Positions 8,606-28,113 of a stretch of 64,000 bases of DNA are shown here, piece by piece. A program made the position numbers and the translations under genes. The DNA comes from a bacterium. Its GTDB lineage: Bacteria; UBP6; UBA1177. The stretch spans positions 1-64,000 of the forward strand of contig JAGCXM010000021.1 of assembly GCA_017961325.1 (NCBI GenBank), given 5' to 3'. The notes under the pieces are model-generated. The model saw only the letters and a program-made list of their open reading frames with translations. It was not told where the DNA came from and did no database searches. The first letter of the stretch is position 1, and every line of letters begins with the position of its first letter.

Positions 8606-9583
8606 TTAAGGAACCTCAACCCTGTTGAGAAGTTCGGATATTATTTTGTCGGTAGTGATTTTTTCTGCTTCGGCTTCAAATGACGGGATGATTCTGTGGC
8701 GCAGAACAGGGTAGGCGACTTCTTTGATGTCTTCCGGAGTTACGAAGTTTCTTCCTTCGATGAAAGCGCGGATCCTGCCGGCAAGAATAAGGAAAATGCT
8801 TGCACGCGGGCTTGCTCCGACATCGATAAGCTGGGCAATGGAGCGGTCTTTCGGATTTCTCGTCTCCGAAACTATCGAAATGACGTATTTTTTGATTCTG
8901 TCGTCGGTGTAGATCTGTTTCGCGATTTCCTGCCACTCTTTGATTTTGTTTTTGTCGAGAATTCTGTTGAGTTTCTGCACGAGTTCTCTTCGCTCGAATT
9001 TTTCAATGATTTTAAGCTCTTCCTCGGGAGTCGGGTAATCAATCAGAACTTTGAACATAAATCTGTCAACCTGAGCTTCGGGCAGCGGATAGGTTCCCTC
9101 CTGTTCAAGCGGGTTCTGCGTTGCGAGAACGATGAAAGGATCGGGGAGGGCAAAAGTCGTTCCGCCGATCGTGACCTGACGCTCCTGCATCGCTTCAAGC
9201 AGAGCCGACTGAACTTTCGCCGGCGCACGGTTTATTTCATCAGCCAGAATCACATTTGAAAAAATGACACCTTTCTTAATCTCGAAATTGCGGTCCGTCA
9301 TGTTGAATATTCTGCTTCCGATGATATCCGCCGGCAGCAGATCGGGCGTGAACTGGATCCGCTGGAAGTCAAGGTCGGTCGAATCCGCAAACGCCTTAAC
9401 GGCAGTCGTTTTCGCAAGTCCCGGAACGCCTTCCAGAAGAATGTGACCTTCGCCGATAATGCCCATAATCAGGGCTTCGACCATCTCTTCCTGCCCGACG
9501 ATAACTTTTGATATCTCCGATTTCAAAGCGCTTATCGTCAGCGCGTGATTTCTGATTTTTTCATTCAATTCGCTGAATTCCAT
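8606..9583 (-). CDS. MoxR-family AAA+ ATPase
   Basis: MoxR-type AAA+ ATPase of 325 residues. The start at 9583 has GGAGG five bases upstream on the minus strand; the longer in-frame start at 9619 lacks a site. Seen in the protein are the Walker A region LEGVPGLAKTTAVKAF, Walker B (VILADEINRAP) and the family motif LLEAMQERQVTIGG. MoxR ATPases act as chaperones for activation of metal-dependent or surface complexes, usually beside DUF58 and von Willebrand A genes. No such partner lies next to it here, which makes it an orphan within the window. It converges on the serpin gene and is divergent from the dikinase-like gene. Confidence 0.93.
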   Translation of the reverse strand: MEFSELNEKIRNHALTISALKSEISKVIVGQEEMVEALIMGIIGEGHILLEGVPGLAKTTAVKAFADSTDLDFQRIQFTPDLLPADIIGSRIFNMTDRNFEIKKGVIFSNVILADEINRAPAKVQSALLEAMQERQVTIGGTTFALPDPFIVLATQNPLEQEGTYPLPEAQVDRFMFKVLIDYPTPEEELKIIEKFERRELVQKLNRILDKNKIKEWQEIAKQIYTDDRIKKYVISIVSETRNPKDRSIAQLIDVGASPRASIFLILAGRIRAFIEGRNFVTPEDIKEVAYPVLRHRIIPSFEAEAEKITTDKIISELLNRVEVP

Positions 9584-18923: not shown

Positions 18924-19856
18924 ATGAATAAAATCAAATACTTGGTCTTTTTAAGCGTTCTTTGCTGCACTTTTTTCGTTTCGGCGGCAGGTGAAGAGAA
19001 CAAGCCGCACAACAGGTTTGATATCGCCTTGGAATACAGCCGGACTTCCGGTTTTATTCCTGCAGCCGATGTCTTGTGGCACTACAACGACACATTTTTT
19101 TCATCTTTGTACGGAAATTATTTTTTTTCATCCGAAAAGAAGACGCTGTCAAACTATGAAAACAGTAAATATGCCGTTTTTTCAAAGAAATTTGTTCTCG
19201 GAAGCGAGGTTTTAGGCCTCTATTTTTTGAAAAATCCGGCGCTTTTCGCTCTCAGTCTGGGATTGGAATATCAGAGGGTGAAAAACGAGGAGTTCGGTTT
19301 TTTCGACGTCAGTGAGACGACTGTGACATTTGAAGACACGATATATCAGAATCTGATACTTCCTTTTATCAGACTTACTGCCGACAAACATTCGAAAATT
19401 GTCAACAACAGGTTTTTGTTTGTATTTTACCCCTCTTACTGTCTGATGCTTGAACAAGAGATTTATTTTAACCCGCTTTTTTCGCGTAAACACACCTCGG
19501 ATTCATCGAAATGGCAGGTTCCTGCTTTTGAAATTTCTGATGAAATCTTGATTGGTTTCAATAATTTCGGCGGAATTTTACTCAACACTGCATTTTCATT
19601 CCGCGAGGCCAGATATACTTCGGCGGTTTTAAGGAAATTAGAGGACGGGTACGGTTTCGGAGAGGCTGAAGTGCGTCAGATATTTCTGGAATACGGTTTT
19701 ACGGTGTCGTATGTCATTCCGTTTGAAATCGCCGGAACAATCCACCCGAAAATCGGTGCCGGCCTTTCGGGTTCGGCGGAATTCCGCAAAAATGGCGGAA
19801 AGAAATCGACAAACAGGGATGTCGGCTATCTTTTTGTTTTCGGTTTCCACTATTGA
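18924..19856 (+). CDS. probable outer-membrane beta-barrel protein, unknown function
   Basis: Protein of 310 residues with a cleavable signal peptide (residues 1-22, ending VSAAG). The mature part alternates aromatic and polar residues in a way typical of transmembrane beta strands (for example SSLYGNYFFSS, LSLGLEYQRV) and ends in an aromatic residue pair (FGFHY), the usual outer-membrane insertion signal. No enzyme motif is visible. It starts six bases after the lipoprotein stop without a clear Shine-Dalgarno site, which suggests coupling to it. It is the last gene before the accessory island. Confidence 0.75.
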   Translation: MNKIKYLVFLSVLCCTFFVSAAGEENKPHNRFDIALEYSRTSGFIPAADVLWHYNDTFFSSLYGNYFFSSEKKTLSNYENSKYAVFSKKFVLGSEVLGLYFLKNPALFALSLGLEYQRVKNEEFGFFDVSETTVTFEDTIYQNLILPFIRLTADKHSKIVNNRFLFVFYPSYCLMLEQEIYFNPLFSRKHTSDSSKWQVPAFEISDEILIGFNNFGGILLNTAFSFREARYTSAVLRKLEDGYGFGEAEVRQIFLEYGFTVSYVIPFEIAGTIHPKIGAGLSGSAEFRKNGGKKSTNRDVGYLFVFGFHY

Positions 19857-19860
19857 TTCC

Positions 19861-19909
19861 ATTATGCGCACTTATAACAAAGGATCGAAGCCTTTCCGGA
19901 AACGATTTA
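19861..19909. repeat. island 3' repeat, copy A (after the DUF4143 gene)
   Basis: Read on the minus strand, this stretch starts TAAATCGTTTCCGGAAAGGC, continues CTTCGATCCTTT and ends with TTATAAGTGCGCATAAT. The first part recurs after the Fic gene (21408-21440) and after the restriction-modification gene (22698-22730). The TTATGCGCA box recurs at 21291-21373 and 26273. A small hairpin (AAAGG/CCTTT) is possible in this copy. Confidence 0.75.
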
Positions 19910-19912
19910 GAA

Positions 19913-21271
19913 TTACAGACAGAAAGTCATATATGCAGGAATGCATAGAATGCCGTCGTTTTCGATAAGATTTCTTGGGTGAATGATATATGAACCGCCA
20001 ATCCGTTCATTGAATTTATTACGGAATTTTTGCAACGATGTCGTTTTGTAACGGTTTGAGGACTTCACTTCAACAGGAAAAATTTTATATTCCAGTTTGC
20101 TGTTGTTGGAAAGAATAAAGTCAATTTCCATGTCGTTGCGGTGTTTTTCCTCGTTGTAATGACTATAGAAATAAAGTTTGTGACCATTGGCGGCAAGCAT
20201 CTGCGCGACAGCATTTTCGTAAAACATTCCTTCGTTGAAAGAGAGCGTTCCACTGAGAATCTGGTTGTAAATCTCTTTTTCCAGAAGTTCATTTTCATCA
20301 AAAGTATGGCTTAGAAGCAGTCCTGTATCGCCAAGATAACACTTGATGTAGCCGCGGCTTTCATTCAGGGAAAGACCGACATTCGGATCGTTGCATAGAA
20401 AACACTCGTTTGTCACCATAGAGTCTGAAAGCCAGAAAAATGTTTCATTGTAGTCGGTCGAGTCTGATTTTTCCGCAACATTCTTAAAAACGATGCGCTT
20501 TTCGTGCTGCGAAAGAAATCCAGGAATTGCGTCAAAAATGGAGATAACCTTACTTCTGTAACGGGCTTTAATCTTCATCATGTCACTGCGGTACAAATCA
20601 AGAATATCCCTTTTCTCGCGGTCAACTTCATAAAAATCCTTGCCGCTTTCAATAAAAATATCAACACATTTCGGCATTCCGCCGATAAGAAGATACTGCC
20701 TGAAAAGAAGCTTGGCCCTGTTGTGGAGACCTCTTTCAAGAGGTTCTTTCTTCACGAAACAATTTTTTATGTAATCAATGAGATTTTCTTCTCCGAGTGC
20801 CGACGCGAATTCTTCAAAATCCATAGGAAACATCTTCAGATGGCGTTCTTCCGACGGAATCACGATGTTTCGGACATTTTCCTTTATCGAAATCAGAGAA
20901 CCTGTTTCAATATAATCGTATCTTCCGTCTGCAACAAGATATTTTACAGCCTCTCTCGCTTTCGGAAAGCGTTGAACTTCGTCAAAAATTATCAGGCTTT
21001 CGCGCCTATGCAGTTTTGTCTTGTATTCAGCTGAAAGAAGCATGAAAAATGTGTCAAGATCATTGAGATAATCGGTAAAATACGATTTCACCTTCTCGCT
21101 TGCGACTGCGAAATCAAGGACAATGAAACTTTTATATTCCTTCGCAGCAAACTCTCTTGCAATTGTCGATTTGCCTATTCGTCTGGCACCTTCAATCAAA
21201 ATCGCCTTGCTTCCTCTGCACTCTTTTTTCCAAGCCAGAAGTTTCTCGTAAATCTTGCGTTTAAAAATCAT
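19913..21271 (-). CDS. ATP-binding protein, AAA_14 + DUF4143 type
   Basis: Protein of 452 residues. The start at 21271 has GAGG seven bases upstream; a longer frame to 21334 would run through the repeats and is rejected. Walker A is EGARRIGKST near residues 27-36, Walker B is LIIFDEVQRFP, and the sensor region is YIETGSLIS. The C-terminal half has DUF4143 features, including a nuclease-like segment (EIDFILSNN, FPVEVKSSN) with an E-x-K pair. Such ATPases are common, mobile and of unclear function, often suspected in defence or toxin-antitoxin roles. It is flanked by the island repeats: three TTAT(A/G)CGCA boxes upstream and copy A of the 3' element downstream. Confidence 0.88.
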   Translation of the reverse strand: MIFKRKIYEKLLAWKKECRGSKAILIEGARRIGKSTIAREFAAKEYKSFIVLDFAVASEKVKSYFTDYLNDLDTFFMLLSAEYKTKLHRRESLIIFDEVQRFPKAREAVKYLVADGRYDYIETGSLISIKENVRNIVIPSEERHLKMFPMDFEEFASALGEENLIDYIKNCFVKKEPLERGLHNRAKLLFRQYLLIGGMPKCVDIFIESGKDFYEVDREKRDILDLYRSDMMKIKARYRSKVISIFDAIPGFLSQHEKRIVFKNVAEKSDSTDYNETFFWLSDSMVTNECFLCNDPNVGLSLNESRGYIKCYLGDTGLLLSHTFDENELLEKEIYNQILSGTLSFNEGMFYENAVAQMLAANGHKLYFYSHYNEEKHRNDMEIDFILSNNSKLEYKIFPVEVKSSNRYKTTSLQKFRNKFNERIGGSYIIHPRNLIENDGILCIPAYMTFCL

Positions 21272-21290
21272 TTTTTGACCTCTTTTGTCA

Positions 21291-21373
21291 TTATACGCAC
21301 ATATAAAAATGGCACAAAAACCGATTATACGCATGTATAGAATACCAATGAACTCCGATTATGCGCACTTATA
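21291..21373. repeat. three TTAT(A/G)CGCA boxes at a 34-base period
   Basis: TTATACGCACATATA (21291-21305), TTATACGCATGTATA (21325-21339) and TTATGCGCACTTATA (21359-21373) begin exactly 34 bases apart, upstream of the DUF4143 start. Each box is a partial palindrome (TATA arms around a GC-rich centre), and the second has arms TATAC/GTATA. The bases between are not conserved except for CCGA before boxes two and three. They may be operator sites for the ATPase gene or recombination sites; the same box also marks the other island borders. Confidence 0.75.
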
Positions 21374-21407
21374 ACTACAAAAAACGGATTTTTCAAGAAA
21401 AAATTTA

Positions 21408-21440
21408 AGACAAGGATCGAAGGGTTTTGGAAAGGATTTA
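21408..21440. repeat. island 3' repeat, copy B (after the Fic gene)
   Basis: On the minus strand the stop codon of the Fic gene is the first triplet of TAAATCCTTTCC, followed by AAAACCCTTCGATCCTTG. It matches copies A and C in the TAAATC(G/C)TTTCC and CTTCGAT(C/T)CTT blocks. The centre is more diverged and the hairpin of copy A is lost. Confidence 0.65.
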
Positions 21441-22565
21441 AACTATTTCCCAGTATCCGTTTTTTCTTCCGCCTGATCGTTTGATCCGACCTGATAAACG
21501 GAGTTTTTTGACATGATAAAACACGCCGTCTTCGGTTATTTTGAATTTTAGTGCGAGTTCTTTTGTTGTTATGTGAGGATTTTCTTTTATCGCACAGAGA
21601 ATCTTTTCCGTAGTTTTTTCCGTAGATACAGAGCTGTTTTCCGTAGTGTTTTTTGCTGGAGCAGCTTCTTTTTCCGTAGTAAATCCGTTTTTTTCCGTAG
21701 TTTCTTCCGAAACTTTTCCGGCATATTTGGCATAGTCGATATGGGTTTCTCTGTTTTTGAGCTCGTTGTGCTCGTCTAAAAGAAGGTTCCGGAAAAATTT
21801 TTCGAGAAAAACGGGATTTTCTGAAATTCCTTTCTGAAGATTGGTGTAGTTCGCCCTGACAAGCGCGTTTCTGAAATACCAGCTGTTCTGCGCAAAGATG
21901 TCGTTATCGGCCTTAAAGCCGAGCGAACGCAGATATTTTATCGTGAAAACAGCCGTCGTCCGCGTGTTTCCCTCGCCGAAAGCGTGGATCTGCCAGAGCC
22001 GCGAGACAAAAAAAGTGATGTGACGGGCTATCTCATCCATCGAAAGATTTTTGTAACGGAACCTCTTCTCCTGCATGAAATCGTATTCCAAAGCGCTCTT
22101 CAGCTCGAAAGCCGCGCCATACATCACAGTATCGCCGTTCAATACCCACTCGTTTTTTGTTATGTCGTAGTCACGGAGCCGCCCTGCAAACTTGAAAATC
22201 CCCTCAAAAAGACGTTTATGAACCGCTATCAGATACGACGGACTGAAATTGAAGGAAGGTTCGCTCAGAATCTGCGCAATGCGGCTTGAAACCTTGTCAG
22301 CTTCCTCGGTACGGTTGTCAGGGTTCTGGAGCCTTAAAGATTTGCTTTTGTAATAGGAATTGATGAGACGGCTCACATCATCGAACGAAATCTCGCCTTC
22401 AATGTTGCGTTTTGCCGTCTGGTAAAGGTATTCCGAAGGTTTTAGCCCGTCCACCTGCTGCAGACCGATGGCAGTAGCCCATGCGAAAGTTTTCTCTTTT
22501 TTGTCCGCACCCGTGTGGCGGAGATATTTCTCAAAATCGGCTTCGTAATGACTTTTTTCCGGCAT
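21438..22565 (-). CDS. Fic-domain protein with C-terminal winged helix
   Basis: Protein of 375 residues. The Fic core lies at about residues 125-250 with the active-site loop HAFGEGNTRT, a close variant of HPFx(D/E)GNGR that keeps the catalytic His and the Gly-Asn-x-Arg frame. Fic enzymes usually transfer AMP to target proteins. An N-terminal segment around residues 45-75 (QTAKRNIEGEISFDDV) resembles the inhibitory VbhA-type helix, so the enzyme may be self-inhibited, although the Ser/Thr of the usual inhibitory motif is not at the expected place. A Thr/Glu-rich linker (about 285-315) leads to a winged-helix domain at the end (ITTKELALKFKITEDGV), suggesting DNA binding. It lies inside the repeat-bounded island. 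Confidence 0.9.
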   Translation of the reverse strand: MPEKSHYEADFEKYLRHTGADKKEKTFAWATAIGLQQVDGLKPSEYLYQTAKRNIEGEISFDDVSRLINSYYKSKSLRLQNPDNRTEEADKVSSRIAQILSEPSFNFSPSYLIAVHKRLFEGIFKFAGRLRDYDITKNEWVLNGDTVMYGAAFELKSALEYDFMQEKRFRYKNLSMDEIARHITFFVSRLWQIHAFGEGNTRTTAVFTIKYLRSLGFKADNDIFAQNSWYFRNALVRANYTNLQKGISENPVFLEKFFRNLLLDEHNELKNRETHIDYAKYAGKVSEETTEKNGFTTEKEAAPAKNTTENSSVSTEKTTEKILCAIKENPHITTKELALKFKITEDGVFYHVKKLRLSGRIKRSGGRKNGYWEIV

Positions 22566-22600
22566 TTTTAAGACCCGTTTTTATCCAAAAATTTCAAGAC

Positions 22601-22700
22601 ATTTCCGAAATGTCACCAAAAACAGAGGATTATACACAATTTTTAGGGAAATGCGAGATTTAGGGTGAGAATAAAACTCAGATTTTGCACAGGTATAAGA
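22601..22700. repeat. 100-base direct repeat upstream of the Fic gene (copy 1)
   Basis: About 90% identical by eye to 26191-26290, with the first 60 bases differing at one position only. Read on the minus strand, both copies contain TATAAT (22619-22624 here), a probable promoter -10 box for the Fic gene. The distal end overlaps the TTATRCGCA-like box that closes the restriction-modification cassette. Confidence 0.85.
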
Positions 22701-22730
22701 AAGAATCGAAGCCTTCCTGGAAACGATTTA
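22698..22730. repeat. island 3' repeat, copy C (after the restriction-modification gene)
   Basis: On the minus strand the restriction-modification stop codon begins TAAATCGTTTCCAGGAAGGC followed by TTCGATTCTTTCTTATA. It agrees closely with copy A. It sits directly against the 5' repeat of the next gene (Fic), so the gap between these genes is made entirely of repeat material. Confidence 0.75.
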
Positions 22731-23165
22731 ATTCCTGCCTTCAACAATGGCAATTTCGTCATCCGTCAGTCCGTAAAGCTCATAAACCTGCCTGTCGATT
22801 TCGGCTTCCAGTGCGCTGACCTGTTCTACCAGCATTTTCCCGTCATTCTGAGACTTTAGTCGAAGAATCTCATCCACCAGTTCAACTATTTGTTTTTGCT
22901 GCTCTTTTGTGGCAACAGGGATCGGGATAGTTTCAAGTTGATTCAGCTTTATTTCAAAGCCGGATGTAAAAAGTTTTCTAAACCAGAAATTGATAAGTTT
23001 GGAATTAAGAAGAGCAAGAATGAATTTCATATCATACTCTTTTTCCAACTCATAAATAACATTGATTTTATCATTGCAAAGATATTGTTCGCAGTCAAGC
23101 GTAGCATTTATTTCTATTGACATATCTTGGACCATAATCTTCTGCGGAATATTGAAAAAAGACAA
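22728..23165 (-). pseudogene. C-terminal part (target-recognition end) of the type IIG enzyme, out of frame
   Basis: These 145 codons (FFNIPQKIMVQDMS near the start; IPIPVATKEQQKQIVELVDEIL later) continue the specificity region of the type IIG enzyme encoded at 23114-26155 but lie in another frame. The two frames meet at a run of six A on the plus strand (23155-23160). One extra base in that run would join them. The segment includes the end typical of target-recognition domains (P-I-P plus a helix). It could be expressed by slippage, or the gene may be broken. It has no convincing start site of its own. Confidence 0.8.
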
Positions 23166-26155
23166 TTGATATTTTCTTTCATCAGTTCAGGTTTATACCA
23201 AATATATTCATTTGCTGTATTTACAGGTTGTTCCCAGCGTCTGAGATTTCGCCCTCGAATAATTGGATAACAATCTTCATCCCGTTTTTCATTCAAAATA
23301 AATTTCTTATCGTTTGCGCTTTTTATACCGCAACTTGCTTTCATTATGCTACCGAGTTTTACGGTTTGAACTTTGCTAAGATCTATATTTTGTTCAAAAG
23401 TGAAGTTATAGCCGTGGGTAGAAAGAATCTTTTTGTATGACAACTTACATTTTGAACTGAAAACTTCGTCTTTATCACAATTTCTAATCTCAATCTCATC
23501 ATCAATGTTCGGTTTCTTATTTTGATACGAACAAATAATTGTTTTGACTGTTGCGTTGTCAAAAACTTTGTCTGGTAATTTCACTAAATGGGTTACAGAC
23601 ACATCTTCAGCAAGAAATTTGCGAAATGGCAGAAAACTTTGTATTCCGAGCCAACTGTTAGAAAATATAAATGAAAACGAGCCATTAGGTTTTAACAACC
23701 ATGAAGAAAGTTCAGTAAAAAGCGAGTACAAATCAAACATTTTTCTTGCTGTTTTGTATCGTAACTTAAAAAAGTCTTTCAAAGAAGAATTTTTTATATT
23801 GTTCGCACTGATATACGGCGGATTGCCGATGACTGCATCGAAGCCCAGGAATTTGCCGGTATCGGCAAGAACTTCGGGAAATTCGATCATCCATTCAAGG
23901 GAATCGGCGTAGATGTCGTCGTCAAGAATTTTTTTGTTCAGTTCTTCGTCAAAAAAGACCAACTGAACTATTCCGTGAATCTGCCGCTTGATGCTTTGAA
24001 TAAGATTATCGACTTTCCGCTTGTTTTCCTTGTTGTTTTCGTTCTTGTATGCAGCGACAGCCTCTCGGTATTGACGAATGAGTTTTCGGGTGTCGGGATT
24101 TCCTTCGCTAAGAATGGAACCACCTGTTTTTATTGAATATCTGCTCACAAGCGAGTTGCCGCACTTAATGTTGATATCGATATTGGGAAGCGTTTCAAGC
24201 TGAGTAAAACCCGATTCTTCGGTGTAATATGCGTTTTTGAGAAGCTCGATCCAAAGACGGAGGCGGCAGATGTAGACGCTTGCCGGATTTATGTCCACGC
24301 CGAAAAGACAGTTTTCGATAATTGTCCGCTTTTCGTTGAAAATCGCTTCCTGAACGCGCTGCCGCTCAGGATTTATCGAATAAACAAAAGGATTCCCTTC
24401 GTCGTCAAGAATCGAAATCTCGTCGTTTTCAAGTTCAAGAGCCCAGTCGCTGCGGCGGATCCTGCGCCCGTTTTTATCAAACAGAATGTCAAGATAGGAC
24501 TTGATGAAAAGCAGCCTGTTCAAAACCGAAACAAGAAAGTGGCCGCTTCCCACAGCCGGGTCGTAGATGCGGATCGAATTTATGATTTCATTCGCTTCGG
24601 CGCGGTCATCTATTTTGTCGGCAAGTTCTTCGAGTGTTTCGCACTTCCAACCCTTGAAATTATTGAACTTCTGAATCACAGTGCGCTCAACAGTCTCTTT
24701 TGCCATATATTCCGTGATGAAACCCGGCGTGAAAAAAGAGCCGTCCTTATAACCGTTGATTTTTTCAAAAATGAGGCCGAGAACACTCGCGTTTATCAGA
24801 GTTTTTGTATCCTGCGTGATGCCGGATTCCGTCTCGCTCGAAAAGTTGTAGGAATCAAGAAAACGGAAAATGTAGGCTAAATTATCCATTTTTCCCGTCA
24901 TTCTCCGCCCCTTTTTGTCTTTCAGCACAGTGCGGGGGAAAAGTTTCATCGATTTATTCATAATTCCGCGGATTTGCAGGAGTTTTTCTTCAACGCTCGG
25001 TTCAAAGAGAGAACTGTTGAGATAAGGAACGAAGCGGAATTTTTCCCTGACCTCGCTGTCCCGTGCCTCCGGTCTGCGCCCCAGAACCTTAAAAAAGAGG
25101 ATATTGAGAGAATCAAAATCAGGAACAAGCTCTGTCGTCAGAAATCTGTATTTTTCGTCTCCCTTCCGGTATGCGAGCTGCTGACTTTCCACAAGTTTCA
25201 GGAAAATCAAACGGTTGATCCAGTTTATTGCAAGACGCAGAGCGACCTCGTAACGGCCGTTTTCGTCAAGGTTTTCTTCTTCAAGCTGATATATCGCGCT
25301 TTCAAGCAGACTCGCACCGTCGCGATCAGCCTCTTTTTTGCGCCGGATCACCTTTTTGCCCGATTCCTTGACTTCCTCAAGACCTACAATGTGAAGCAGC
25401 TCCTCATAGAAATTCTTATCCAAACTATTGGAATCATTGGCAAAAGGCTTGCCAAGAAGATGCTCCGGCGAGAAAATTTTGTAGAGAGGAATGAGAGATT
25501 CTTCGCTGCGCTCAGAATGACGATAAAACTCCGCTGGAGTTACCTTTGTCACAACGATATTTTCATTCTCGATCCACTTGTTTATCGCCGGTTTCGCGCA
25601 GTTTTCGTAAAAATATGCAGTTTTCGTGTCGGAAAGCTGACCGGCTTCAAACTTTTTGAACTGCTCAACTATCGGATTTGTTTTCACAAGGAAAAATCGT
25701 GCAAAATCTTTCGCGTCAAAAATATAAAAATCGTAATAATTTGTAATAATTATGTGCTTAATCTCGTTGTTTTGGAATTTCAGGTTCTCCTGCAGAAAAT
25801 AGTAGACACACTCCTGCAGAGCCTTGCAGTTAAAGTTGGTTTCGCTGAACATTTCAGCCGTGTTTGAGGGAGATTTCGCCTCGATTATTACCGCAGGTTT
25901 CGAGTTCGCCGTATTTCCGCCGAAAATCACAAGATCCTCGCGTCCGTTCGTATTTACCGCATAATCGGGGCTGTAAAAAGTCTCTTCCAAGAACTTTTTT
26001 ATCAGATTTTTGTGAAATTCCTCGCTTTCATCCTGCTTTCCTGAACTCAGATAAACGGACAAAGCCTTGTTCAGCCTTTCAATCTCGTTTTGCGGAACAG
26101 GCTGCCTGAAAAAGGCCGGATTTATTGATTTTTTTGCTGTAGTTAAAGTCATCAT
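23114..26155 (-). CDS. Eco57I-like type IIG restriction-modification enzyme (truncated by frameshift)
   Basis: Single-chain enzyme of 1013 residues as read, combining nuclease and adenine-specific methyltransferase. The start at 26155 has GGAG eight bases upstream; 26227 is an unsupported longer start. The N-terminal PD-(D/E)XK site is visible as REDLVIFGG and, further on, PAVIIEAKSPS. Methyltransferase motif I is YDPAVGSGHFL and motif IV is GNPPYISAN. The frame ends at TAG 23114-23116 within the specificity domain, because of a frameshift at 23155-23160. The remainder continues at 22728-23165. Residues about 212-220 read RHSERSEES, encoded by an inserted palindromic repeat. As read, the enzyme lacks the end of its target-recognition domain and may be inactive or altered. 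It is flanked by the island repeats. Confidence 0.88.
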   Translation of the reverse strand: MMTLTTAKKSINPAFFRQPVPQNEIERLNKALSVYLSSGKQDESEEFHKNLIKKFLEETFYSPDYAVNTNGREDLVIFGGNTANSKPAVIIEAKSPSNTAEMFSETNFNCKALQECVYYFLQENLKFQNNEIKHIIITNYYDFYIFDAKDFARFFLVKTNPIVEQFKKFEAGQLSDTKTAYFYENCAKPAINKWIENENIVVTKVTPAEFYRHSERSEESLIPLYKIFSPEHLLGKPFANDSNSLDKNFYEELLHIVGLEEVKESGKKVIRRKKEADRDGASLLESAIYQLEEENLDENGRYEVALRLAINWINRLIFLKLVESQQLAYRKGDEKYRFLTTELVPDFDSLNILFFKVLGRRPEARDSEVREKFRFVPYLNSSLFEPSVEEKLLQIRGIMNKSMKLFPRTVLKDKKGRRMTGKMDNLAYIFRFLDSYNFSSETESGITQDTKTLINASVLGLIFEKINGYKDGSFFTPGFITEYMAKETVERTVIQKFNNFKGWKCETLEELADKIDDRAEANEIINSIRIYDPAVGSGHFLVSVLNRLLFIKSYLDILFDKNGRRIRRSDWALELENDEISILDDEGNPFVYSINPERQRVQEAIFNEKRTIIENCLFGVDINPASVYICRLRLWIELLKNAYYTEESGFTQLETLPNIDINIKCGNSLVSRYSIKTGGSILSEGNPDTRKLIRQYREAVAAYKNENNKENKRKVDNLIQSIKRQIHGIVQLVFFDEELNKKILDDDIYADSLEWMIEFPEVLADTGKFLGFDAVIGNPPYISANNIKNSSLKDFFKLRYKTARKMFDLYSLFTELSSWLLKPNGSFSFIFSNSWLGIQSFLPFRKFLAEDVSVTHLVKLPDKVFDNATVKTIICSYQNKKPNIDDEIEIRNCDKDEVFSSKCKLSYKKILSTHGYNFTFEQNIDLSKVQTVKLGSIMKASCGIKSANDKKFILNEKRDEDCYPIIRGRNLRRWEQPVNTANEYIWYKPELMKENINCLFSIFRRRLWSKICQ
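25498..25522. repeat. palindromic repeat of the HSERSEES type, inside a gene
   Basis: GATTCTTCGCTGCGCTCAGA and the following ATGAC form an imperfect palindrome (TTCT...AGAA arms with GC/GC inside). Read in the minus-strand gene it encodes the peptide HSERSEES. This sequence is familiar as a dispersed palindromic element in many bacterial genomes. It is inserted in frame between the nuclease and methyltransferase parts of the type IIG enzyme. Confidence 0.75.
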
Positions 26156-26190
26156 CAATACTTCTCCAATTCGATTCAGATGATCTCCCA

Positions 26191-26290
26191 ATATCCGAAA
26201 TGTCACCAAAAACAGAGGATTATACACAATTTTTAGGGAAATGCGAGATTTAAGGTGACGATAAAAGTCAGATTATGCGCAAGTATAATG
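26191..26290. repeat. 100-base direct repeat upstream of the restriction-modification gene (copy 2)
   Basis: Partner of 22601-22700. On the minus strand it contains TATAAT at 26219-26224, about 64 bases before the gene start at 26155, so the repeat probably supplies the promoter. Its distal end carries TTATGCGCAAGTATAA (26273-26288), the box that also marks the other island borders. This copy forms the right edge of the island. Confidence 0.85.
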
Positions 26291-26353
26291 GTAAAAAGTG
26301 CAGATTTTCGCAATGAAAAGCCGTGCTAAAAATTTAAAAATATTATTGATTTT

Positions 26354-26383
26354 TTGCAAAAAATCGTTATTGTCCCCTACTTT
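26354..26383 (+). promoter_or_regulatory. possible promoter of metG
   Basis: TTGCAA (26354-26359) and TACTTT (26378-26383) are 18 bases apart, about 55 bases upstream of the metG start. The match is by eye only. Confidence 0.35.
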
Positions 26384-26439
26384 TTCCGGAATTTGGCCGG
26401 TATTTTTTTCACACACGAGCTTTTTTGAAGGAGAAAAGA

Positions 26440-28113
26440 TTGAAGTATTTAGTCACATCAGCTCTGCCCTATGCAAACGGTCCGATCCACCTCGGCCATC
26501 TTGCAGGGGCTTATCTTCCCGCCGATGTTTATGTGCGCTATCTCCGCAACATGAAGAGAGACGTCATATATGTCTGCGGAACGGATGAACACGGTGTCCC
26601 GATCACTATAAATGCGGAATCGCGCGGGATCACTCCCGAAGACGTCGTAAGAGAAAATCACGAGATAATCGCACGCGGCTTTGAAATGGCTGAGATGTCT
26701 TTCGATATATTTTCAGGAACGCACAACGATATCGAGAATGAGCTTTCACAGGATTTCTTCAAGAGACTCGATAAAAACGGCTTCATTTCGGTAAGAGACG
26801 TCGAACAGTTCTACTGCGAACACGACAAGATGTTCCTCCCTGACAGATACGTCGAAGGAACCTGCCCCATCTGCAAAGATCCCGGAGCACGCGGCGACCA
26901 GTGCGACAAATGCGGAAACGCCCTCAACTCGCTCGATCTCATTGATCCGAAATGCAAGCTCTGCGGCGAAACTCCGGTGAAAAAGACTTCAAAGCACTGG
27001 TTTTTAGATCTCGACAAATTTGAAAAAAGACTGGATGAATGGCTTGAGACCAAGACGAACTGGAAAAGCAACGTCAAGGCTTTCTGCAAACAGTGGTTTG
27101 AAAGAGGTCTCGAGCCGAGAGGTATCACCCGCGATATCTCCTGGGGCGTTCCCGTTCCCGTCGAAGGTGCCGAAGGAAAAGTCCTTTACGTCTGGTTCGA
27201 TGCGCCGATCGGCTACATCGCATTCACGAAAGAACTTTTCGCCAAAAGAGGCCTCGACGAAAACGAATGGGAGAAATGGTGGAAAGGCGGCGACGACGTC
27301 AAGCTCATCCACTTCATCGGCAAGGACAACATCGTTTTCCACTCGATAATCTGGCCCGCAATGCTCATGGGTCAGGAAGACGGCTGGAAACTTCCCGACG
27401 AGATCCCGGCAAACGAATTCCTCAATCTCGAAGGTCAGAAGATCTCCACCAGCAGAAACTGGGCTATCTGGGTCCACGACTTCCTTGAAAGATTCAACCC
27501 CGACTCTGTCAGATTCTACCTTGCTACGATCGCTCCCGAAACCAAAGACTCAGACTTCTCCTTCAAAGGCTTCCAGGATGCGAACAACGGCATGCTTGCC
27601 GCGATCTACGGTAACTTCGTGAACCGCAACCTCGCCTTCATCAACAAGTTCTTCGGCGGCAAGATCGAAGGAGAGACAAAGTTTTCGGAAGAGGACGAAA
27701 AAATGTGGGAAAGCGTCCATGCGGAACTCAAGGAAGTCCTCAGCTGCTACGAGACATTCTGCGTGAGAGATGCGGCTTTCCACATCATGGAAATAGGAAG
27801 GATCGCGAACAAATACTTTGATTCGATGGCTCCGTGGGCACTCAGAAAGAGCGATCCGGCGCGCTGCAACGGCGTTTTCATAAACTGCCTTAACCTTATC
27901 AACACTATCGCAACGGCTATGGAGCCGATAACTCCTGCCGCAAGCAGAAAAGTCAAACGAATGCTTAATCTGCCTGAAGTGTTTGATTTTACTGAACTTT
28001 TTAACTGTGCCATTAAAGACGGCATAAAGCTTGGTGAAGTTGAGATACTTTTCGGGATGATCGACGACGAAACTATCGCCGCCGAGAAATCGAGATTAGG
28101 CAACAATCATTGA
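26440..28113 (+). CDS. metG: methionyl-tRNA synthetase
   Basis: Class I aminoacyl-tRNA synthetase of 557 residues that charges tRNA-Met. The start is TTG at 26440, preceded by AAGGAG six bases upstream. The in-frame TTG at 26425 lies before that site and is rejected. The HIGH motif is HLGH (residues 17-20). A zinc knuckle CPIC...CDKC...CKLC lies near 145-175, and the KMSKS equivalent is KISTS near 333, a variant known in the family. The anticodon-binding helical domain follows. The optional C-terminal tRNA-binding domain is absent. It borders the accessory island on its left. Confidence 0.97.
   Translation: MKYLVTSALPYANGPIHLGHLAGAYLPADVYVRYLRNMKRDVIYVCGTDEHGVPITINAESRGITPEDVVRENHEIIARGFEMAEMSFDIFSGTHNDIENELSQDFFKRLDKNGFISVRDVEQFYCEHDKMFLPDRYVEGTCPICKDPGARGDQCDKCGNALNSLDLIDPKCKLCGETPVKKTSKHWFLDLDKFEKRLDEWLETKTNWKSNVKAFCKQWFERGLEPRGITRDISWGVPVPVEGAEGKVLYVWFDAPIGYIAFTKELFAKRGLDENEWEKWWKGGDDVKLIHFIGKDNIVFHSIIWPAMLMGQEDGWKLPDEIPANEFLNLEGQKISTSRNWAIWVHDFLERFNPDSVRFYLATIAPETKDSDFSFKGFQDANNGMLAAIYGNFVNRNLAFINKFFGGKIEGETKFSEEDEKMWESVHAELKEVLSCYETFCVRDAAFHIMEIGRIANKYFDSMAPWALRKSDPARCNGVFINCLNLINTIATAMEPITPAASRKVKRMLNLPEVFDFTELFNCAIKDGIKLGEVEILFGMIDDETIAAEKSRLGNNH

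Follow-up and report, generated by a model that had tools for sequence, protein, structure and literature searches.

The window, that is, the whole stretch of 64,000 nucleotides that was analysed, contains a type IIG restriction-modification gene that breaks off inside its target-recognition domain (TRD). The remainder of the domain continues from about the same point in another frame, and a run of six T's lies close by. The question raised by this locus is whether the gene was interrupted by a change in the length of this run, as expected for a phase-variable gene, or in some other way.

Domain architecture of the interrupted gene

The coordinates of the gene and its parts are given in Table 1. 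ORF1 encodes an N-terminal nuclease, a helical domain, an adenine methyltransferase (MTase) and the first part of the TRD. It comprises 1037 codons when counted from the outermost GTG (26227). However, since the frame of the related locus L003 opens only at ORF1 residue 23, after a stop, translation likely starts from ATG at 26155 or 26152 rather than from this GTG. ORF2 encodes the out-of-frame remainder of the TRD and a C-terminal tail. It matched the Pfam family TaqI_C over profile positions 36-118 (3.1e-14) and, over 178 columns, shared 70% identity with the C-terminal end of the intact chain encoded at another related locus, L004. Both ORFs matched the PADLOC family REase_MTase_IIG (PDLC03612), ORF1 with an E-value of 4.1e-209 and ORF2, with the C-terminus of the family (1107-1246), with an E-value of 7.8e-22. 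Considering these Pfam and PADLOC matches together, ORF1 and ORF2 are one broken type IIG gene.

Table 1. Features of the type IIG locus and of its interruption (positions in the window)
Feature	Position	Strand	Evidence or remark
ORF1 (type IIG: nuclease, helical domain, adenine MTase, first part of TRD)	23114-26227	minus	premature end at 23114
ORF2 (out-of-frame remainder of TRD and C-terminal tail, TaqI_C)	22728-23165	minus	
DUF7149, PD-(D/E)xK-type nuclease domain	25433-26140	minus	Pfam, 6.6e-78
DUF7814, helical domain	24794-25432	minus	Pfam, 3.6e-73
Eco57I-type N6-adenine MTase core	23561-24313	minus	Pfam PF07669, 2.9e-35; NPPY begins at 23824
Segment putatively exchanged with an L004-like allele	22864-23804	minus	downstream edge less sharp
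Junction of the 16-nt deletion	23168/23167	minus	alignment to intact L004; placement ambiguous by 3 nt (AAT repeat)
Six-T run	23155-23160	minus	same in the intact relative

The original prediction, made from the DNA letters, had assigned the gene to the type IIG enzymes and had placed the frameshift inside the TRD. Both points were borne out, the former by the Pfam domains and the PADLOC match and the latter by the position of the ORF1 stop within TaqI_C, with the rest of this domain lying one frame away. A complete TRD in a single polypeptide was found in L004 and not in the window. The locus is a disrupted member of the type IIG enzymes, its copy of PDLC03612 being split between two frames.

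The nuclease and the MTase are fused in one chain. Residues E47, D76, E94 and K96 were invariant in all 14 aligned sequences, which comprised the window gene and 13 of 22 related loci (L005, L009, L010, L011 and L020-L024 were left out); the codons of the invariant D and E-x-K lie at about 25936 and 25882-25874. Foldseek found no match at E<=0.001 for a model of the nuclease part (residues 23-480; mean pLDDT 84.9). When this model was compared with known structures by VIA-align, BpuSI came first (Z 9.7; 144 aligned, rmsd 3.5), and DrdV was also matched (Z 8.4; 230 aligned, rmsd 10.9). The helical part (model residues 244-441) matched positions 159-289 of MmeI (Z 9.1; 123 aligned, rmsd 3.0). 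Because unrelated mitoribosome chains reached Z values of up to 7.3 in this comparison, the nuclease assignment rests on the motif and the fold together. No papers on DUF7149 were found in the literature collection searched.

The same chain carries the N6-adenine MTase core with NPPY and also the sequence DPAVGSGHF, which we take to be a form of MTase motif I. A model of the MTase and TRD (mean pLDDT 70.7, with a weak TRD) matched CamA, BrxX/PglX, M.BseCI, MmeI and TaqI. TaqI was also found in a sequence search against solved structures, with an E-value of 5.5e-11 across the MTase and TRD.

BpuSI and DrdV are single-chain enzymes with an N-terminal nuclease, a helical connector, an N6-adenine MTase and a C-terminal TRD. 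The window gene has the same domain order as BpuSI (PDB 3s1s) and DrdV (7lo5), but its sequence is only 14% and 11% identical to theirs, respectively, and its TRD is interrupted.

Mosaic structure of the gene

The gene was compared with its relatives in two other species of the same genus, each species being represented by one genome. L004 (taken as the same record as L027, genome G003) is intact, has 1197 codons and is the nearest intact chain to share the recognition domain of the window gene. L003 (taken as the same record as L026) is from the second species, genome G007.

The change from L003-like to L004-like sequence in the window gene fell within 23813-23804, immediately behind NPPY, which is MTase motif IV. 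Over 26050-23951, it was 95-99% identical per bin to L003 and 56-87% identical to L004, identity to L003 falling to 91% in the bin adjoining the seam (23950-23801). Over 23800-22901, identity was 39-51% to L003 and 92-98% to L004 per 150-nt bin. Sites differing between L003 and L004 were also counted in 100-nt bins. At these sites, the window was L003-like in 626 cases versus L004-like in 28 over bins 26100-23900, and L003-like in 14 versus L004-like in 440 over bins 23700-22900; isolated exceptions thus occurred on both sides of the seam. The seam bin 23800 (10 L003-like, 5 L004-like) and the tail bins 22800 (15, 18) and 22700 (3, 12) are outside these sums, and there were 1171 sites overall. 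At the protein level, the last 560 residues before NPPY were 96% identical to L003 and 72% to L004, and the part after NPPY was 29% identical to L003 and 92% to L004. Gaps set the tail apart from L004 as well, a single 150-nt bin accounting for 81 nt of them.

When 28 genomes of the phylum were searched, the same TRD was found only in G000, the genome of the window, and in G003, L004 being the only intact allele with this TRD. The next-best TRD match by E-value was 32% identical, and identity reached 73% in short stretches matching the tail or the insertion within it. No relatives on viral contigs were confirmed for either the TRD or the body of the gene.

The gene is clearly a mosaic. We infer that it arose by recombination, in which the C-terminal half of the gene, from MTase motif IV onward, would have been exchanged with an allele like that of the congeneric species L004 comes from. 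The distance between species was estimated from MetG, which was 95% identical in G007, 92% in G003, 99% in G009 and 97% in G006. Considering these distances and that no DUF7149 match was found in G009 and G006, it appears that both the type IIG gene as a whole and parts of it are transferred between species.

TRD exchange and broken restriction-modification genes are both known phenomena, described in PMC3077401 and PMC4996451. PMC3077401 describes cases of recombinational TRD exchange in specificity genes that concern S subunits with domain-flanking repeats and occurred within species (H. pylori, S. pyogenes and M. agalactiae). In the window gene, unlike in these cases, the C-terminal half of a fused type IIG enzyme is common to different species and the upstream seam is at motif IV.

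Cause of the frameshift

Over 23800-22901, the sole indel between the window and L004 was a stretch of 16 nt missing from the window. In L004, these nucleotides sit between AATATC and AATTGTC, and the allele reads AAT, 13 bases, AAT. The deletion site lies between two AAT triplets, seven bases upstream of the six-T run, and the gap may be placed at the junction given in Table 1 or up to 3 bases downstream. With the deletion, the frame changes and five residues, A-R-P-R-E, are lost. These are residues 1020-1024 of L004, in which TaqI_C spans residues 986-1106.

According to the original prediction, the frameshift was at the homopolymer, where one added base would restore a single chain. The run was found to be present, and such an addition does join the frames, but this is arithmetic only. 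The open frames of ORF1 and ORF2 overlap by about 64 nt, and any additional base within the overlap would join them; an addition at the run is equivalent modulo three to restoring the 16 nt and gives a chain that is five residues shorter than L004 at this place. The six T's are unchanged in intact L004, both alleles reading GTCTTTTTTCAAT. The lesion is the 16-nt deletion beside the run and not a change in the run itself.

The deletion may have originated by slippage or misaligned repair at AAT. When the L004 sequence around the deletion site was folded to look for a hairpin, the z-score was 0.07, and 97 of 200 shuffles folded at least as well.

It is probable that the locus represents a recently inactivated single-chain type IIG gene, in which the recognition half was exchanged and a 16-nt deletion followed as a step of ordinary decay. 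Decay had been named as one of the alternatives in the original prediction, and it is this alternative that was supported. After the exchange, the deletion at AAT, with its 3-nt end identity, would have cost the TRD five residues and put its remainder out of frame, and the main product would lack the second half of the TRD and the C-terminal helices. One TRD serves both activities in type IIG enzymes. Because it directs both, the truncation would be expected to abolish restriction along with modification, and no self-damage would result.

The main alternative is misassembly or within-species polymorphism: the chromosome might really have the 16 nt, or the mosaic might be an artificial joining of two species from a strain mixture. 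Since the G000 assembly consists of 48 contigs, a minority variant or a misassembly is conceivable, and the four nearest relatives (L003-L006) are marked as metagenome assemblies. However, the TRD differs from that of L004 by 4-5% of bases over 23810-22890 and is therefore not the L004 allele itself brought in by contamination. The ATPase gene that follows downstream on the same contig is 95.6% identical to its counterpart at L003; a chimera of L003-like and L004-like sequences would therefore need two joins. Moreover, no other interruption was seen in the gene, and an error of the homopolymer type would not yield a gap of 16 nt. Such an artefact is thus considered unlikely.

Type IIG genes subject to phase variation, exchanged TRDs and decaying restriction-modification systems are all already known, and a recently inactivated mosaic gene fits the known fast turnover of restriction-modification genes and would not surprise a specialist. 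What the locus adds is a clear case of a fused type IIG enzyme whose recognition domain is common to two species, with the upstream seam at motif IV and probable subsequent inactivation.

Age of the deletion and possible residual function

Substitution rates were estimated by the NG86 method, and few changes underlie the resulting figures (11 changed codons after the deletion). For the body of the gene versus L003, dN was 0.0144 and dS was 0.127 (771 codons; 54 synonymous and 26 non-synonymous codon changes). For the TRD versus L004, dN was 0.0117 and dS was 0.182 before the deletion (213 codons; 19 synonymous, 6 non-synonymous), and these values were 0.0181 and 0.194 after it (92 codons; 7 synonymous, 4 non-synonymous). 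Over the full length of ORF2, diverged tail included, dN was 0.094 and dS was 0.383 (145 codons). No further stop or frameshift was seen in the gene. Because nothing else was seen to be broken and synonymous changes prevailed on either side, a recent origin of the deletion is probable, but most substitutions may predate it.

The low dN/dS on either side of the deletion could also be read as a sign that the gene still functions. ORF1 and ORF2 might form a split enzyme, ORF2 having a possible start codon (TTG at 23165) inside ORF1, or slippage on the six U's of the transcript might produce a fraction of full-length chains that lack the five residues and may differ in specificity. In a phmmer alignment, TaqI was found to have no residues equivalent to the deleted five, and a chain without them could fold. 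On the other hand, the break is inside a single TRD domain, visual inspection revealed no canonical -1 slippery heptamer that would point to programmed frameshifting, and a run of six U's is only weakly prone to slippage. Every one of the substitutions may, moreover, be older than the deletion. Retained function is accordingly regarded as very improbable. As TaqI has no equivalents of the five residues, their loss by itself might be tolerated, and the frameshift is what matters. In distant TRDs, a PR...F-like pattern was present at the A-R-P-R-E site in a few cases (L079, L040 and L009) and absent in most of those listed. In the MTase and TRD model, residues 499-545, which span the deleted segment at 540-544, had pLDDT values below 50; for this reason, no structural claim is made for A-R-P-R-E. 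That the deletion was something other than plain decay, giving a split or slippage-joined enzyme whose TRD, without A-R-P-R-E, reads a changed target, and that exchange and small deletion together thus made a new specificity, is extremely doubtful.

The six-T run and phase variation

In the window, 208 A/T runs of at least 6 nt were counted (about one per 308 nt), 11 of them in the gene, and the chance that such a run falls within a 64-nt stretch is estimated at about one in five. Since A/T runs are this common and the frames overlap by about 64 nt, the presence of six T's near the frameshift is a cheap coincidence. When the gene was scanned for long homopolymers, no A/T run longer than 7 nt and no G or C run of at least 6 nt were found. 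No hypermutable tract in the gene accounts for an on/off difference in frame, the T6 run being the same in the intact allele; this comparison of run length was made with one allele, L004, the sole close TRD match among 28 genomes.

Switching or retargeting by slippage, which had been suggested originally and in which the run would gain or lose a base to turn the enzyme on and off, is scarcely credible: although an added base would join the frames and type IIG genes that switch in such a way exist, the run is short and of a common kind, intact L004 has the same six T's, and the 16 nt missing alongside fully explain the frame. An example of true switching, described in PMC4889913, is Cj0031 of C. 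jejuni NCTC11168, a phase-variable type IIG enzyme with a polyG tract (G9/G10), both activities of which are predicted to be lost together. The window gene resembles it in being divided between two frames and in the predicted joint loss of activities. However, Cj0031 switches via its polyG tract of 9-10 nt, whereas the window gene has a 16-nt deletion and no change in repeat length. It is tempting to blame a frameshift on a nearby homopolymer, but where an intact relative carries an identical run this reading is wrong, as the comparison with L004 makes clear.

Related copies and their decay

A search of genome contigs yielded 22 related loci, and a search of 61 genomes, including that of the window, gave matches in 26. 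Eighteen of the 22 loci were a single open frame of 1100-1252 codons from stop to stop. Two (L005 and L023) were cut at the contig 5' end and otherwise open, and two were interrupted elsewhere, L010 by an in-frame stop and L024 by a frameshift. In the genome of the window itself, a 5' remnant of a further copy was found at G000:C47:15203-15415 (L054), where an open frame of 78 codons is followed by a frame change. At G008:C16:27263-28665 (L053), the 5' end corresponds to ORF1 residues 11-65, the last stretch of the match fading. A match to the C-terminal tail lies about 1.2 kb past this 5' end (E 1e-7), and a weak tail-like match lies directly behind it (E 0.018). Considering the interrupted L010 and L024 and the remnants on G000:C47 and G008:C16, it may be concluded that decay of such type IIG genes is not rare here.

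Flanking repeats, neighbouring genes and inserted peptides

The region 19913-26227 beside metG is a variable gene-cassette site. A 98-nt direct repeat (92% identical; 22601-22698 and 26191-26288) precedes both the type IIG gene and a Fic gene, and a 49-nt repeat (84%; 19861-19909 and 22682-22730) follows the type IIG gene and an ATPase gene. Owing to these repeats, the genes here share starts and ends, and this may help cassette exchange. Partial copies of the repeats were found at G000:C17:6650 and C43:196548. A scan of 19800-26450 for promoters and terminators gave no excess over shuffles (7 versus 11.1 expected and 7 versus 7.7).

The Fic/wHTH protein (21438-22565) matched the PADLOC candidate family PDC-S72 (2e-145), and the AAA_14/DUF4143 ATPase (19913-21334) matched the candidate family PDC-S01 (1.5e-101). 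In G007, a Fic gene (95.5% identical) is located near metG, with a copy of the leader and other open frames between them, and no type IIG match was found in the 12.9 kb of this metG region. The type IIG gene of G007 lies near alaS, together with the same ATPase gene (95.6%) and a different middle gene without a Pfam match. The corresponding stretches of G009 and G006 matched the window only over metG and the near upstream sequence.

An in-frame insertion of the palindromic-repeat type, RHSERSEES, was observed in the nuclease domain at about 25497-25519 and is also present in L003. HSERSEES is inserted in the TRD of L003 as well, and the tail of L004 contains SSPKLGEV...SPSNLEG (around 9340-9470). 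Such insertions resemble selfish palindromic elements inside coding genes. With at most one mismatch to one DNA pattern, HSERSEES was found at only 2 sites in the genome.
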